DNA of 28,049 nucleotides from a virus, in IMG/VR virus record IMGVR_UViG_3300009314_000071, positions 1-28,049 of that record. One strand, written 5' to 3'. The notes below the pieces were generated by a model. The model saw only the letters and a list, made by a program, of their open reading frames with translations. It searched no databases and was not told where the DNA came from. A program made the translations under genes and the position numbers. This document shows positions 5,410 through 17,120 of the stretch, in pieces. Numbering within the stretch: position 1 is the first letter of the stretch; each line of letters begins with the position of its first letter.

Positions 5410-6000
5410 TTAGAAATTCACATTCACTTTATTTTGAAAATATTCTGTCCAATATTTACGATTTGTATTTACATGACTATTGCAACCTTGACATAAAGCT
5501 ATTAAATTATTTCTATTTGTATTCTTTTTATTATAATCAATATGGTGAACATCTAACTTACGAACACACTCTATTTGAGGTACTCCGCATAACTGACAAG
5601 TATAATTATCTCTTTGACGTATAAGTTCTCTTAATGCCCAAAATTCTCTACCATATGGTTCAAAAGATTTACCACCTTTCCAACTTGGCGAATCTGGTGT
5701 CTTTCTCCATTTAAATAAACACTTCCGAGAACAAAACATTTTTTTCTTCAATCTCGTTTTCCATCGCCAAGTAAAGCCTGGAGTTGAAAATACTTTTCCG
5801 CATAGATAACAATTACATTGAACCTTAGTAGTTTTGCCTCTATTCGCATGATAACACTTCTTGGAACAAAATTTTCTCCCTGGATATACTGAACCAAATA
5901 TTTTTTTACATTCTTCACAAGTATATGGATATTCTCTATGTCCTCTATTCCAAGGTATCCATCCTTTGGTAAATCTACCTTTATTTGTTCTTTTGTCCAT
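5410..6000 (-). CDS. HNH homing endonuclease with N-terminal zinc fingers (copy 2)
   Basis: 196 aa. Two treble-clef-like zinc modules come first (CEECKKIF with FCSKKC, and CYLCGKVF with FCSRKC, residues about 28-93). A linker WKGGKSFEPYGREFW follows, and then an HNH domain: CQLC, LDVHHIDYNKKN, CQGC at about residues 135-176. The linker and HNH domain are clearly related to copy 1 at 1588-2208. It overlaps the upstream YkgJ-like gene by 20 bases and has only a weak ribosome site. It lies between genes and does not interrupt one. Confidence 0.9.
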   Translation of the reverse strand: MDKRTNKGRFTKGWIPWNRGHREYPYTCEECKKIFGSVYPGRKFCSKKCYHANRGKTTKVQCNCYLCGKVFSTPGFTWRWKTRLKKKMFCSRKCLFKWRKTPDSPSWKGGKSFEPYGREFWALRELIRQRDNYTCQLCGVPQIECVRKLDVHHIDYNKKNTNRNNLIALCQGCNSHVNTNRKYWTEYFQNKVNVNF

Positions 6001-6268
6001 TTTTTCGCCTTTGACGCAGAAATTCGCAGAAAGCCTTTTGTAATTCTATATAGTCCACCCAACTTGATACAAGTGAACCCCCAGTTATTCGCCACATACG
6101 ATATACTGAGCACATAACTGGACGTTTATCATAGATTTCACATTTATTATCTTCAGTTAAGAATCTACACTTTATTGTCCGACAGCAAGCTCCGCAACAG
6201 GAACAGTCAAACTTTATGTTAGGTTCGTCGATTTTATTGAGTTGTTTATCTTCACTACAAACTTCCAT
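5981..6268 (-). CDS. YkgJ-family cysteine cluster protein
   Basis: 95 aa with the signature of the YkgJ/UPF0153 family: CSCCGACCRTIKC near residues 22-34, then CEIYDKRPVMC near residues 43-53. The family is thought to bind zinc or an iron-sulphur cluster through these cysteines; its biochemical role is poorly known. GGGGGA directly upstream supports the ATG although it lies 55 bases inside the preceding gene. It may have entered together with the adjoining HNH gene, because both overlap their neighbours while the flanking virion genes are otherwise neatly spaced. Confidence 0.8.
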   Translation of the reverse strand: MEVCSEDKQLNKIDEPNIKFDCSCCGACCRTIKCRFLTEDNKCEIYDKRPVMCSVYRMWRITGGSLVSSWVDYIELQKAFCEFLRQRRKNGQKNK

Positions 6269-9563: not shown

Positions 9564-9592
9564 TTGACAACCCAGTATACTTGTGCCATAAT
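9564..9592 (+). promoter_or_regulatory. Sigma70 promoter for the antisense HNH gene
   Basis: A consensus TTGACA at 9564-9569, a 17-base spacer, and CATAAT at 9587-9592. It is directly followed by AAAGGAGGT and the ATG at 9614. It drives transcription opposite to the surrounding structural operon. Confidence 0.85.
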
Positions 9593-9613
9593 ATTATGAA
9601 AAAGGAGGTTCAC

Positions 9614-10084
9614 ATGAGAAGAACAAGTATTCAAAAAGTTTGTAAAGGTTGTAAATCTAAATTTATTATTTATCCATCTCGTCTCAAATTTGGCAATCCT
9701 ACATATTGTTCTCGTAAATGCTATTACAAACATTATAAACCTTCGGAAGAAACTAAGAAAAAGACAAGTCAATCTGTTAAAGGCAAAATGGCAGGTCCTA
9801 AACACCCCAATTGGAAGGGGGGGAAAGTAATCGCTATTGATTTTACTACTGGTCACAAATATATGTGGATTTATTCCCCTCATCATCCTTTTAGAAACAG
9901 ACATAATCAAGTTAAACGTTATAGACTTGTAATGGAAAAACATCTGAAAAAATTTCTTACAAGAGATGAGATTATCCATCATAAAAACGGTAATACACTT
10001 GATGATAGAATTTGCAATTTGGAACTTTCTAATCAATCCAAACATATGTCGCATCATAAAACCCTTTATTGGCAAAAACACTAA
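9614..10084 (+). CDS. HNH homing endonuclease, antisense (copy 3)
   Basis: 156 aa when started at the ATG 5 bases after a perfect AAAGGAGGT; an upstream in-frame ATG at 9581 lies inside the promoter and is rejected. The N-terminus has a zinc module (CKGCKSKF with YCSRKC, residues about 10-37), then a NUMOD3-like stretch (EETKKKTSQSVKGK), the linker HPNWKGGK, and an HNH_3-type core EIIHHKNGNTLDDRICNLEL near residues 119-138. It fills the whole gap between the adaptor and tail hub genes and overlaps the adaptor's stop tail-to-tail by 4 bases. It has its own consensus promoter, so it can be expressed independently of late transcription. Confidence 0.9.
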   Translation: MRRTSIQKVCKGCKSKFIIYPSRLKFGNPTYCSRKCYYKHYKPSEETKKKTSQSVKGKMAGPKHPNWKGGKVIAIDFTTGHKYMWIYSPHHPFRNRHNQVKRYRLVMEKHLKKFLTRDEIIHHKNGNTLDDRICNLELSNQSKHMSHHKTLYWQKH

Positions 10085-10787: not shown

Positions 10788-11108
10788 CTATCCATTATCT
10801 ATCTCCATTGTTCGCACTTCTATTGTTCCACTTGCTACTATTCCGTATAACTTTGCACCACTACCCAAATCGAAGGGTAATCCCTGATAAGGTTGCAGGG
10901 GATAACCTGTGGCTGTTGTTACACTGCTATTTCCAAGGTATACTATCTCCCCTGCACTTTGACTCATATTAAACACTGTTATTGCTTTTCTGTTACTCAT
11001 TGGAGTTGTAGGTATAGCTGTAGCAGTAGTTGTTACTGTTACTGAACCTGTGGTAAAATCTAGTCCAGTGCTGTCAAGTACGCCGATAATATCTCGTCTT
11101 CTACTCAT
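10788..11108 (-). CDS. Small virion (head/neck-associated) protein
   Basis: The ATG at 11108 (MSRRRDIIGV) is preferred over the upstream TTG at 11123, since AGGA lies at a good distance before it. The 106-aa protein is almost entirely beta-type: TATAIPTTPMSNRKAITVFN, then EIVYLGNSSVTTATGYPLQP, and LYGIVASGTIEVRTMEI. Proteins with this RKAI...YLG...VT pattern are common next to neck genes in uncultured phages; the function is unknown. It overlaps the end of the O-antigen ligase-like gene by 8 bases. Confidence 0.65.
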   Translation of the reverse strand: MSRRRDIIGVLDSTGLDFTTGSVTVTTTATAIPTTPMSNRKAITVFNMSQSAGEIVYLGNSSVTTATGYPLQPYQGLPFDLGSGAKLYGIVASGTIEVRTMEIDNG

Positions 11109-12216
11109 AAAGTTCCTGTTCAAACATAACTAGCGATACGATTAAGAGTATTCCCAAACTTGTGTGCATAGGAAACCCCCAAAAAGCCACCATACTGAAT
11201 ATAAATAAACTCGTTATTGGTATTAAACCTTTTCTTTTCTTCCAAAAATTATATAAAGTAATCCATACCAAACTTAATATAATTCCTAATCCTACAATTC
11301 CTTGTTCAAATAAAAGTTGTAACCAATCATTATGTGTCTGTGTCCAATGTCCGTCTCTTGCAAATTGAGGAGCCATTCTATAAAATGTGTGTCTAAAAGA
11401 ACCAAGTCCCCAGCCTGTAATATGTTTATCGTGCCAAATCCGTATCGTTTCTTTCCAGACTGCAATTCTATGGGGGTCATAAGTATCTAATTTACCATGC
11501 TGGAAAAGTAAGCACCCACCCATCAAGAGTGCTAATATTATAAGAACTGCTAATCTACGTTTAGTAAAGAAAAGCCAGAACACAAATCCAAGTATTGCTG
11601 CTATGAGTGCTGCTCTTCCGCCTGTGCACCATGTAGCAAATAGGGTCATTGCATAGCCAAGTTTAAATCTAAATCTCTTAAAAGCGAGAAAGAACGGGCT
11701 GCATATAGCCAAAGACCAACTTGCCAACGTTTCATTCCCCCACATAGCGACAGGCCAGCTAATCTTTCTTCGTGTTGCCAAGTCAGTTATCCAAGCCGAG
11801 TTATTCATAAAGAACTGACCAAACTGATATTTCTGCAATATAATAAAAACTGCTTGAAATATCGCTATAAAACAGAATGTCTTATAAATCAGCTTTCTAT
11901 TCAACTTAATCTGATGAAGAACATAGTAAAATAATCCATATAATACGATATTTATTATATTGAAAAAAGCAAACAGATTTATTTGATACCTGGAAGTACC
12001 ACCAAAATCATTTATGCTGTAAGACTTAAATAGAAAGAATAAAAACAAACTCCAGCCAACAAATAATGCTATCGGTTTATTGCGTTTCCATATCAAAGAA
12101 CAGATTAATGTTATTATCAGAACCTGAACACTTATTTCCTTGCACCACCTAAAACTTAATCCAGGAAAGATTACAAATTGTGATGCAAGAAGTAATATTA
12201 CCAAAATATAATTCAT
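11101..12216 (-). CDS. O-antigen ligase/polymerase-like membrane protein
   Basis: 371 aa from the ATG at 12216; a TTG at 12249 could add 11 residues but falls inside a hairpin. It has roughly ten hydrophobic spans and the conserved periplasmic loop of the WaaL/Wzy superfamily: HRIAVWKETIRIW, then GWGLGSFRH, then THNDWLQLLFEQGIVGLGI near the C-terminus. Such enzymes join or polymerise undecaprenol-linked glycans at the outer face of the inner membrane. In a phage this could remodel surface polysaccharide and block reinfection, but the location inside the head operon, between the decoration and neck genes, is odd. Family assignment is confident; substrate and role are inferred. Confidence 0.8.
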   Translation of the reverse strand: MNYILVILLLASQFVIFPGLSFRWCKEISVQVLIITLICSLIWKRNKPIALFVGWSLFLFFLFKSYSINDFGGTSRYQINLFAFFNIINIVLYGLFYYVLHQIKLNRKLIYKTFCFIAIFQAVFIILQKYQFGQFFMNNSAWITDLATRRKISWPVAMWGNETLASWSLAICSPFFLAFKRFRFKLGYAMTLFATWCTGGRAALIAAILGFVFWLFFTKRRLAVLIILALLMGGCLLFQHGKLDTYDPHRIAVWKETIRIWHDKHITGWGLGSFRHTFYRMAPQFARDGHWTQTHNDWLQLLFEQGIVGLGIILSLVWITLYNFWKKRKGLIPITSLFIFSMVAFWGFPMHTSLGILLIVSLVMFEQELYE

Positions 12217-12223
12217 AAATGGT

Positions 12224-12247
12224 GAGCGGTTTTTCAAGGAACCGCTC
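12224..12247 (-). promoter_or_regulatory. Hairpin in the leader of the O-antigen ligase-like gene
   Basis: An 8-bp perfect stem (GAGCGGTT with AACCGCTC) with an 8-base loop lies between the decoration gene stop and the ATG of the ligase-like gene. There is no T-tract on either strand, so it is not a classical terminator. It may limit read-through, mark an RNA processing site, or mask translation of the membrane protein. Confidence 0.45.
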
Positions 12248-12261
12248 AAAACCTTTTCACT

Positions 12262-12810: not shown

Positions 12811-12979
12811 TTAACCTGTTACGCTGGAGATTACGCCGAGTTTCCTTCTATTATTAGTGGTTAACTGACAATAGACGTGCATCGTAGCGTAGTCCGCTAA
12901 TTGCCCTTGGACTCTCTCCCACTGGGAAGTTACGAATTCTCCACCACGAAGAAGCCGTAAAAATAGATACTTACTGTTG
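12811..12979 (-). CDS. Major capsid protein, exon 2
   Basis: This segment has no start codon. In one frame it reads NSKYLFLRLLRGGEFV, then TSQWERVQGQLADYATMHVY, and ends CQLTTNNRRKLGVISSVTG and stop. The ending NRRKLGVI.SVTG is typical of the C-terminus of HK97-fold capsid proteins of this type, which is missing from the upstream frame. Joined after the base at 13595, the two exons give 782 + 169 = 951 bases, a 316-aa protein with an intact frame. The junction reads TTC CTC AAC AGT AAG TAT. Confidence 0.9.
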
Positions 12980-13594
12980 CACTTTTGTTAGCTTACAGTT
13001 CTTTTTTCTGTAAGGTCGGACTATCCCATCCCTTTCGGGCTGACCCTCTAGTCTCTACACATTTATCGGATTTCTCCGAATTTAGCTCGGGATTAGCATC
13101 ACAGCCGTCCCCCGAATTTGGCCAATTTTCTAATGACCCATTTATGCTAATATGTTTCATTTTTTTCATACGCTTTCTCATTCGTTCACGGTATCTAATA
13201 GTCTCTCGTTTGTGAGGTGTCCCGTATTTTCTGTTACCCTTGCAAGCAAAGATATTTTCTTGCAACTCCAACGCAAGTCGTATTTGTTCTTTTTTAATTA
13301 CTGCATAAGGATAAATTTCCTTTAGGAAATTATATGCCTTTTTCGTAGTAATTATCCAAGAATACAAATCTCTGTGTTTTGAATTTTTGCTATCATAATG
13401 ATAAAACGACCCACCAAAAACATAGAATAACTCTTTCAACATAATGGCATCGCACATATTGATAGAAACCCACACAGAATACGTTGGTTCTTTTCTTGCA
13501 ACTTTGACTATTCTAACTGTTCCTTCACCGTCAAATAAGCCAGCGTAATAATTCAATTTAGCAATAGATAGTGTCATAGTCCCCATTATCGTCG
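12980..13594 (-). ncRNA. Group I intron in the major capsid gene
   Basis: A 615-base intron. Exon 1 ends in U (13595) and the intron ends in G (12980), as group I splicing requires. P1: the exon end UUCCU pairs with GGGGA of the internal guide (13580-13584), with U.G at the splice site; pairing extends 3 bp beyond one mismatch. Near the 3' end, in order: a 7-bp stem (13110-13116 with 13086-13092), a GAAA-capped hairpin (13066-13079, P6-like), P7 (GACUA at 13049-13053 with UAGUC within 13018-13025), P8 (13030-13039, CCC-GAAA-GGG) and P9 (12992-12998 with 13008-13014, 7 bp). The sequence AGAGACUAGA with GAUAGUCC is the classic P7 signature. P3 was not resolved. Confidence 0.9.
12993..13586 (-). 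CDS. Intron-encoded LAGLIDADG homing endonuclease
   Basis: 197 aa from the ATG at 13586, the first inside the intron; a longer frame would begin in the exon. The motif YYAGLFDGEGTVRIV (residues about 13-27) is a LAGLIDADG helix with its acidic catalytic residue. Only one motif is present, so the enzyme should act as a homodimer. The nuclease domain appears to end near residue 150 (RKRMKKMKHISI). The last 43 or so residues (from NWPNSGDG) are read straight through the ribozyme core and look unlike protein. The ATG overlaps the guide sequence in P1, and GGGG of the guide is the only Shine-Dalgarno-like element, upstream of a second ATG at 13577. Confidence 0.9.
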   Translation of the reverse strand: MGTMTLSIAKLNYYAGLFDGEGTVRIVKVARKEPTYSVWVSINMCDAIMLKELFYVFGGSFYHYDSKNSKHRDLYSWIITTKKAYNFLKEIYPYAVIKKEQIRLALELQENIFACKGNRKYGTPHKRETIRYRERMRKRMKKMKHISINGSLENWPNSGDGCDANPELNSEKSDKCVETRGSARKGWDSPTLQKKEL

Positions 13595-14376
13595 AGGAAG
13601 TACATATATCCCGTCGGGCAGTTTGCATCCCACCCTACAGGGGTTCCCATGAAGTCCAAGGTCTTATATCCCAAACTTCCTACTTTGGTATCCATCAATC
13701 TCGTAACATTCGTGGTTGATAACTGAAAGAGACTCCACACCGCTGAAGTCGTTACGATAAGGTCTGGCCAATCATGGTCATTTCCTGCCGCCAAACTCAT
13801 CATATCGTTCATCATGCTAATACCAGCCTGTCCAGTATTAAACGCTGCTGTTCCAGTTGTGTCTCGCCTGTTATCCCACCAACTATATGTTCCGCTATTG
13901 ATAGCTCCTACCGTTCCACCTGCTGTGACTGAAACCAATGACTGAACACCATGTAATGCCTTTGTGTTTGTACCATCATTGAATACTGCTGTACCCATAC
14001 GATTGCTCATAGTGGATTTTGCAGTTTCTATAGTGGTTTCAACCAAATCGGCAACTTGGCTTTCACCAGAAGCTCTTGCTTTATCATAGTCGTAAATCTT
14101 CAATGGTCCTGCAAGAATTCTGATATTATATTCAGCATCTGTGATAGAGTCAGTCGTAGTAAGCGAGATTTCCTCGTCTTTGTTTATCCAGTCATAGCTG
14201 CCTGCTTCCTGATACATTATCTTTTCATGGAATGTCAGACCGCCATCTACTACTCTTACTCTACCGCCAGCTTTCAACCAAGCAGATAGAAGGTTATGTT
14301 CCAGTATGGCATCAGCGATTTCTTTAGAATGCTTATCCAAAGCATGTGCTGCCATATGGGTAACACTTAAAGCCAT
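13595..14376 (-). CDS. Major capsid protein, exon 1
   Basis: Exon 1 encodes 260 residues plus two bases. It starts MALSVTHMAAHALDKHSKEI and includes GGRVRVVDGGLTFHEKI, LKIYDYDKARASGES, and LDFMGTPVGWDANCPTGYMY just before the break; this is an HK97-fold capsid pattern found in many podoviruses. Unspliced translation would continue 12 codons into the intron and stop at 13558, making a 272-aa protein without its C-terminus. The scaffold gene is immediately upstream with a 9-base gap containing AGGAGGG. Correct splicing is therefore needed for head assembly. Confidence 0.9.
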
Positions 14377-16258: not shown

Positions 16259-16554
16259 TAGTTTATAATTACTTTTCCTTTTGCTTTGCAGTATGCTTTT
16301 AGTTGACTCTTAGATAAACACATTCCAGTCGCTAACCTCGTCCACTCTTTTTGCCAGAAAGAAACTCGAGGAGCATTTGACTCCTCTGCCACTTCTTTCT
16401 GTTTGTCCTTCTCTATTTTCCATTTATGTAAACGCTCAAGCCGAGCGGCTCTATCTTCTTCGGTTTCAATCCCACCTATGAAGAAAGCCGTAGCGTGTCG
16501 CTTGTCGTCTTTTGTCTTATAGCATGCGTGAGTAAATTGGTTTTTTCTTGACAT
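16258..16554 (-). CDS. Hypothetical charged protein, 98 aa
   Basis: MSRKNQFTHACYKTKDDKRH, then a charged helix (EEDRAARLERLHKWKIEKDK) and a basic end. GAGAGGA lies before the ATG. Its first 7 bases overlap the -35 box of the antisense HNH promoter, so the two transcripts would collide. It would follow the portal gene directly if the HNH gene were absent. Not recognised. Confidence 0.55.
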   Translation of the reverse strand: MSRKNQFTHACYKTKDDKRHATAFFIGGIETEEDRAARLERLHKWKIEKDKQKEVAEESNAPRVSFWQKEWTRLATGMCLSKSQLKAYCKAKGKVIIN

Positions 16555-16576
16555 TTATCCTCTCAAGTATTAGAAT
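16548..16576 (+). promoter_or_regulatory. Sigma70 promoter for the second antisense HNH gene
   Basis: TTGACA at 16548-16553, a 17-base spacer, TAGAAT at 16571-16576, then AGGAGGT and ATG at 16599. The architecture matches the promoter at 9564. Confidence 0.85.
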
Positions 16577-16598
16577 AACAGGTAATAGGAGGTGCTTT

Positions 16599-17120
16599 AT
16601 GCCACAAGTTGAATGTATCTGCAAGCATTGTCAAAAAGTTTATCATGTATATCCTTATCGCCTTAAAGACGGAACGAGTTTTTGTAGCCAAAAGTGTGTA
16701 TGGCAATATCATGGAAATAGATTTCGTTCTCAATATAGAGGCGAAGGAAATCCTATGTGGAAAGACGGAAGCAGTAAAGAATACTATGTTAGAGAATCTA
16801 TCAGAATTCATGGTTACAATTGTCAGAGATGTGGAACAGATAAAGTCGTAGAAACTCACCATGAAGATGGAAATCCTAAAAATAATCCTTCTGACGGGTC
16901 TAATTGGAAAAGATTGTGTAATCTTTGCCATCAAACTACCGATGGTCGCATTAAAGCCCGAACTAAACAACGAAAAACATTCATTTGCTTTGCTTGCAAA
17001 AAACCTTTTCAAAGAAAGTTTGTCTATATGGAACAAGACACAAAATATTGTTCTCGGCGTTGTGCTAATCTTTCGAGAATACGAAATAGCCATGGTCAAT
17101 TAACCTCCAGCCGTTCCTAA
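16599..17120 (+). CDS. HNH homing endonuclease, antisense (copy 4)
   Basis: 173 aa from the ATG after TAGGAGGT; the upstream in-frame ATG lies within the promoter. Zinc module CKHCQKVYHVYPYRLK with FCSQKC (residues about 8-33), linker NPMWKDGSS, HNH core CQRC, VETHHEDGNPKNN and CNLCH (about 75-110), then a second zinc finger CFACKKPF with YCSRRC near the C-terminus. The N-terminal module resembles that of copy 3 (CKGC, YPSRLK, YCSRKC). It sits between portal and the 98-aa gene and overlaps the portal stop tail-to-tail by 21 bases. Confidence 0.9.
   Translation: MPQVECICKHCQKVYHVYPYRLKDGTSFCSQKCVWQYHGNRFRSQYRGEGNPMWKDGSSKEYYVRESIRIHGYNCQRCGTDKVVETHHEDGNPKNNPSDGSNWKRLCNLCHQTTDGRIKARTKQRKTFICFACKKPFQRKFVYMEQDTKYCSRRCANLSRIRNSHGQLTSSRS

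Follow-up and report, generated by a model that had tools for sequence, protein, structure and literature searches.

The sequence analysed is the IMG/VR virus record IMGVR_UViG_3300009314_000071, positions 1–28,049 (called the window here), and we focused on the minus strand of 12,811–14,376. The frame of the major capsid protein (MCP) starts at 14376. In the list of open reading frames (ORFs) and their translations, it runs into an early stop at 13560–13558 after 272 codons, at the place (13558) reported by a first-pass annotation of this DNA. Joining exon 1 to exon 2 (Table 1) gives, by translation, a 316-aa frame; the exon lengths and the product size proposed in that annotation proved exact on recomputation. 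It had also located a conserved C-terminal sequence, NRRKLGVISSVTG, downstream of the stop at 12811–12979. The location holds, and exon 2 is the whole of this segment, with NRRKLGVISSVTG forming only its last part. The spliced product belongs to PHROG 9953, major head protein, with a full-length match (E 1.9e-54, residues 8–311), and a profile of the family picks up two phage capsid proteins of solved structure, 6j3q and 7f38. Judging by the homologues, the spliced form would be the working capsid protein.

Table 1. Features of the split MCP gene, its intron and the intron-encoded ORF.
Feature	Position	Strand	Description
MCP exon 1	14376–13595	-	782 nt; codons 1–260 and two bases of codon 261; aligns with L002 and L016 up to the junction
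Group I intron	13594–12980	-	615 nt, C13594 to terminal G12980; RF00028 match inside; absent from L002 and L016
MCP exon 2	12979–12811	-	169 nt; last base of codon 261 to stop; NSKYLFLRLLRGGEFVTSQWERVQGQLADYATMHVYCQLTTNNRRKLGVISSVTG matches L002 and L016
P1	13580–13599	-	exon UUCCU 13599–13595 with internal guide GGGGA 13584–13580; 5/5 pairs; U13595.G13584 at the splice site
P3	13040–13125	-	UUGGCC 13125–13120 with GGUCAG 13045–13040; 6/6 pairs; agrees with RF00028 alignment
P4	13086–13116	-	UUCGGG 13116–13111 with CCCGAG 13091–13086; 6/6 pairs
P6a	13066–13079	-	hairpin UCGGA-GAAA-UCCGA
P7 (guanosine-binding helix)	13019–13053	-	GACUA 13053–13049 with UAGUC 13023–13019; 5/5 pairs; fits conserved AGACUA/AUAGUC of RF00028
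P8	13030–13039	-	hairpin CCC-GAAA-GGG, only 3 bp, very short
P9	12992–13014	-	CUUACAG 13014–13008 with CUGUAAG 12998–12992; 7/7 pairs
LAGLIDADG homing endonuclease ORF	12993–13577	-	194 aa from ATG 13577; motif LAGLFDGEG

Two IMG/VR contigs carry the same gene without interruption. The MCP ORF of the first contig (L002) encodes 316 aa with 73% identity to the spliced product (query residues 1–315 matched), and that of the second (L016), also 316 aa, is 76% identical to the L002 protein. Neither of them ends at the 272-aa position. In both, the exon 2 sequence follows in frame and the 615-nt insert is missing, and the spliced protein is colinear with both from end to end. DNA similarity to L002 is seen on either side of the insert, and L002 and the window share the gene order portal, MCP-upstream gene, MCP, next gene, Wzy_C-domain gene and adaptor. 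An AlphaFold model of the L002 MCP (two sequences) was too poor for use (pLDDT 33).

The junction was placed by scoring all 2203 in-frame junctions in 13560–13639 × 12900–13019 against the L002 and L016 proteins. As a scanning query, the MCP alignment A1 proved too diverse. Among the 2203 tested, the best score was a tie between 13595|12979 and its one-base neighbour 13594|12978. In group I introns, the upstream exon ends in U and the intron ends in G. Only 13595|12979 has both of these, and it is the junction defined by U13595 and G12980 in the first-pass annotation, whose splice residues are exact. The predicted ligated sequence reads ...TACTTCCT|CAACAGTAAG..., and the peptide encoded across the junction is YFLNSK. 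The junction lies at codon 261 within a conserved MYFLN motif; the flanking F260 and N262 are invariant in eight aligned MCPs, which include those of Mx8, Mx9, BUCT555 and ppBjS10J-1.

Elements P1, P3, P4, P6a, P7, P8 and P9 are all found in the correct order, with standard pairs throughout. The P1 pairing closing on U.G and the stems P7, P8 and P9 had been noticed before, and all of them stood up to inspection. By eye, there was no good candidate for P10. A search with the Rfam group I model, proposed earlier as a check, returned a match at 13189–13001 that covers model positions 1–253 of 253. The E-value is 4.2e-6 over the local stretch and 1.1e-4 over the whole window, where RF00028 is the sole Rfam match at E ≤ 0.5. 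The score of 32.0 bits, however, is below the curated gathering cut-off of 50 bits, and a search at that threshold came back empty. The cut-off is a database threshold and not a biological feature. For the MCP intron of mycobacteriophage LittleE, the same model gave 30.7 bits; RT-PCR and N-terminal sequencing have proven that this intron is spliced (PMC3706429). Since a proven intron also fails the cut-off, a score below it is no argument against group I membership. The intronless L002 locus, used as a control, gave no Rfam match at E ≤ 0.1.

The main omission of the first-pass annotation is a LAGLIDADG ORF inside the intron. Besides ATG 13577, there are in-frame ATGs at 13586 and 13628, the latter within exon 1. 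Translation of the C-terminal part of the ORF runs through the catalytic core and reaches the stop codon within P9; therefore, one stretch of DNA serves as both protein code and ribozyme. The motif is single and retains its terminal acidic residue. A Pfam LAGLIDADG_1 match (E 6e-4) falls slightly below the cut-off, with 21.1 bits against 23.1. The ORF matches PHROG 5046 (E 1.8e-26), which is named ‘HNH endonuclease’, probably a mislabel. Relatives occur in many actinobacteriophages and other phages; none was found in IMG/VR. In the PDB there is a weak likeness to the I-CreI family (phmmer E 0.11 for 1af5). As in enzymes of the I-CreI type, a single LAGLIDADG motif is present (LAGLFDGEG here, LAGFVDGDG there), for which a homodimer is expected, but the sequence similarity is weak. 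An AlphaFold model from the single sequence was too poor for use (mean pLDDT 35). The endonuclease part has 33% GC compared with 43–44% in the exons, which fits an invading element.

Several other genes of the window were also noted. Four further ORFs resemble HNH endonucleases (1588–2208 and 5410–6000 on the minus strand, 9581–10084 and 16548–17120 on the plus strand). All four are of low GC content (27–36%) and two are antisense to the structural operon; counting the LAGLIDADG ORF, the 28 kb hold five homing-type nucleases. The structural module includes a gene (11101–12249, minus strand) for a membrane protein with a Wzy_C (O-antigen ligase) domain, which is conserved at the equivalent position in L002 (6583–7692); the protein may modify host surface sugars. 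The structural operon also holds a small protein with a CxxCxxCC zinc- or iron-chelating domain (5981–6268, minus strand).

We interpret the locus as a mobile group I intron in codon 261 of the MCP gene of a tailed phage, within the conserved YFLN motif, and give this reading a probability of roughly 95%. The account of the first-pass annotation, an MCP gene interrupted by a group I intron at the splice sites given there, remains the best supported. On the other side stand the Rfam score under the gathering cut-off, the 3-bp P8, the lack of a good P10 by eye and the failure to find a second copy of the intron in IMG/VR. What the DNA itself shows is the split gene with its junction, the core structure and the endonuclease ORF. 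Group I introns splice in two steps, initiated by guanosine. By analogy with this established biochemistry, the intron RNA would fold, guanosine would attack after U13595, and exon 1 would then attack after G12980, leaving a joined mRNA from which the 316-aa capsid protein is made. The LAGLIDADG protein would be read from the unspliced RNA. As the ORF lies inside the intron and overlaps its core, the intron is probably mobile. From what is established for LAGLIDADG homing, the endonuclease probably cleaves the vacant site in intron-free MCP alleles brought in by co-infecting phages, and the intron would be copied in as the cut allele is repaired. An intron-encoded homing endonuclease would explain why the intron is there.

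A once-mobile intron that still splices, with an endonuclease that no longer works and with inheritance now vertical, is an unlikely alternative that nevertheless deserves weight. The absence of any close relative among IMG/VR endonucleases and the Pfam LAGLIDADG scores under the curated cut-offs would fit a dead enzyme, but the frame is open over its full length and the motif is intact. Vertical inheritance is also at odds with the absence of the intron from L002 and L016, from which it follows that the intron was gained or lost within this phage group. Very improbable, in our view, is that splicing acts as a control, with early unspliced mRNA giving the endonuclease and a short capsid protein of 272 aa and late spliced mRNA giving the full capsid protein; the intron would then time or tune head assembly and would not be a neutral parasite. 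We give hardly any credence to a truly truncated capsid protein, in which a free-standing endonuclease gene broke the MCP gene and left exon 2 as a relic or a separate ORF. In its favour, the frame ends at 13558 and a 272-aa ORF is listed. Against this, the exon 2 DNA has kept its reading frame and is still 75% identical to L002 (12945–12830) and 73% to L016 (12973–12674), the insert ends exactly as a group I intron does and contains the core, and conserved MCP positions lie in the part that would be lost. Inteins and group II introns are likewise found within phage genes and can encode endonucleases, but the chance of either here is negligible: read in the capsid frame, the insert meets a stop codon after about 11 codons, which rules out an intein, and no group II Rfam match was found in the window, where group I was matched.

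For the mobile group I intron, we searched for relatives elsewhere. An exact 19-base core pattern revealed no second copy in IMG/VR, and the search of plasmids for related sequence gave no match. Distant core matches in Atu_ph07, in the gut phages MT835539 and MT835492, and in the crAss-like phage cr6_1 had no Rfam match at E ≤ 0.01 and are too few, too divergent and too loosely aligned for covariation counts. A non-coding stretch of the Agrobacterium jumbo phage Atu_ph07 (113129–113073; L009 3001–3057) is 86% identical to the intron core over 56 nt, and may be a group I intron that is degenerate or was left unannotated. In cr6_1 (L013 858–2817), an intron-encoded endonuclease sits between two pieces annotated as the same kind of protein (proteasome non-ATPase regulatory subunit / ATPase). 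This locus is likely to be an unannotated intron with a core resembling that of the present one.

The rarity of an MCP intron implied by the first-pass annotation was overstated, as LittleE and the Delta-group crAss-like phages precede it. The LittleE intron (annotated in record JF937101, gene 13) is likewise group I-like, with exon 1 ending in U, the intron ending in G and a LAGLIDADG (I-CreI-like) ORF within. Its endonuclease, however, is encoded on the opposite strand and shares only 23% identity over 88 residues with the present one, and its MCP is HK97-like and undergoes processing, with the interruption close to the mature N-terminus. Splicing is proven there, whereas here it is predicted from the sequence. 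In Delta-group crAss-like phages, the MCP gene is a typical site of intron insertion (PMC7886860). The Delta and Zeta groups have group I introns in MCP genes and intron-type endonuclease domains, but they are a different phage group, with several introns per gene in some. Pope et al. (PMC3706429) also cite a capsid-gene intron of the lactococcal phage Tuc2009. The endonuclease gp210 of PhiPA3 is also intron-encoded in an essential phage gene, and it illustrates the damage that homing can do to an intronless phage during co-infection (PMC11620839); it is an HNH enzyme in an RNA polymerase gene and not in the MCP gene.

MCP introns as such are already known, but the capsid family PHROG 9953 and the insertion codon appear unreported in the literature searched. 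The locus adds an MCP intron whose splice sites are placed exactly and which can be compared with two intronless relatives. For annotation, it carries a warning: an automatic pipeline would cut the capsid protein short at 272 aa and list a spurious ‘HNH endonuclease’, and at the curated Rfam cut-off this intron would go unnoticed, as does the proven one of LittleE. If the intron splices as predicted, it follows logically that the assembly of the phage head depends on splicing.
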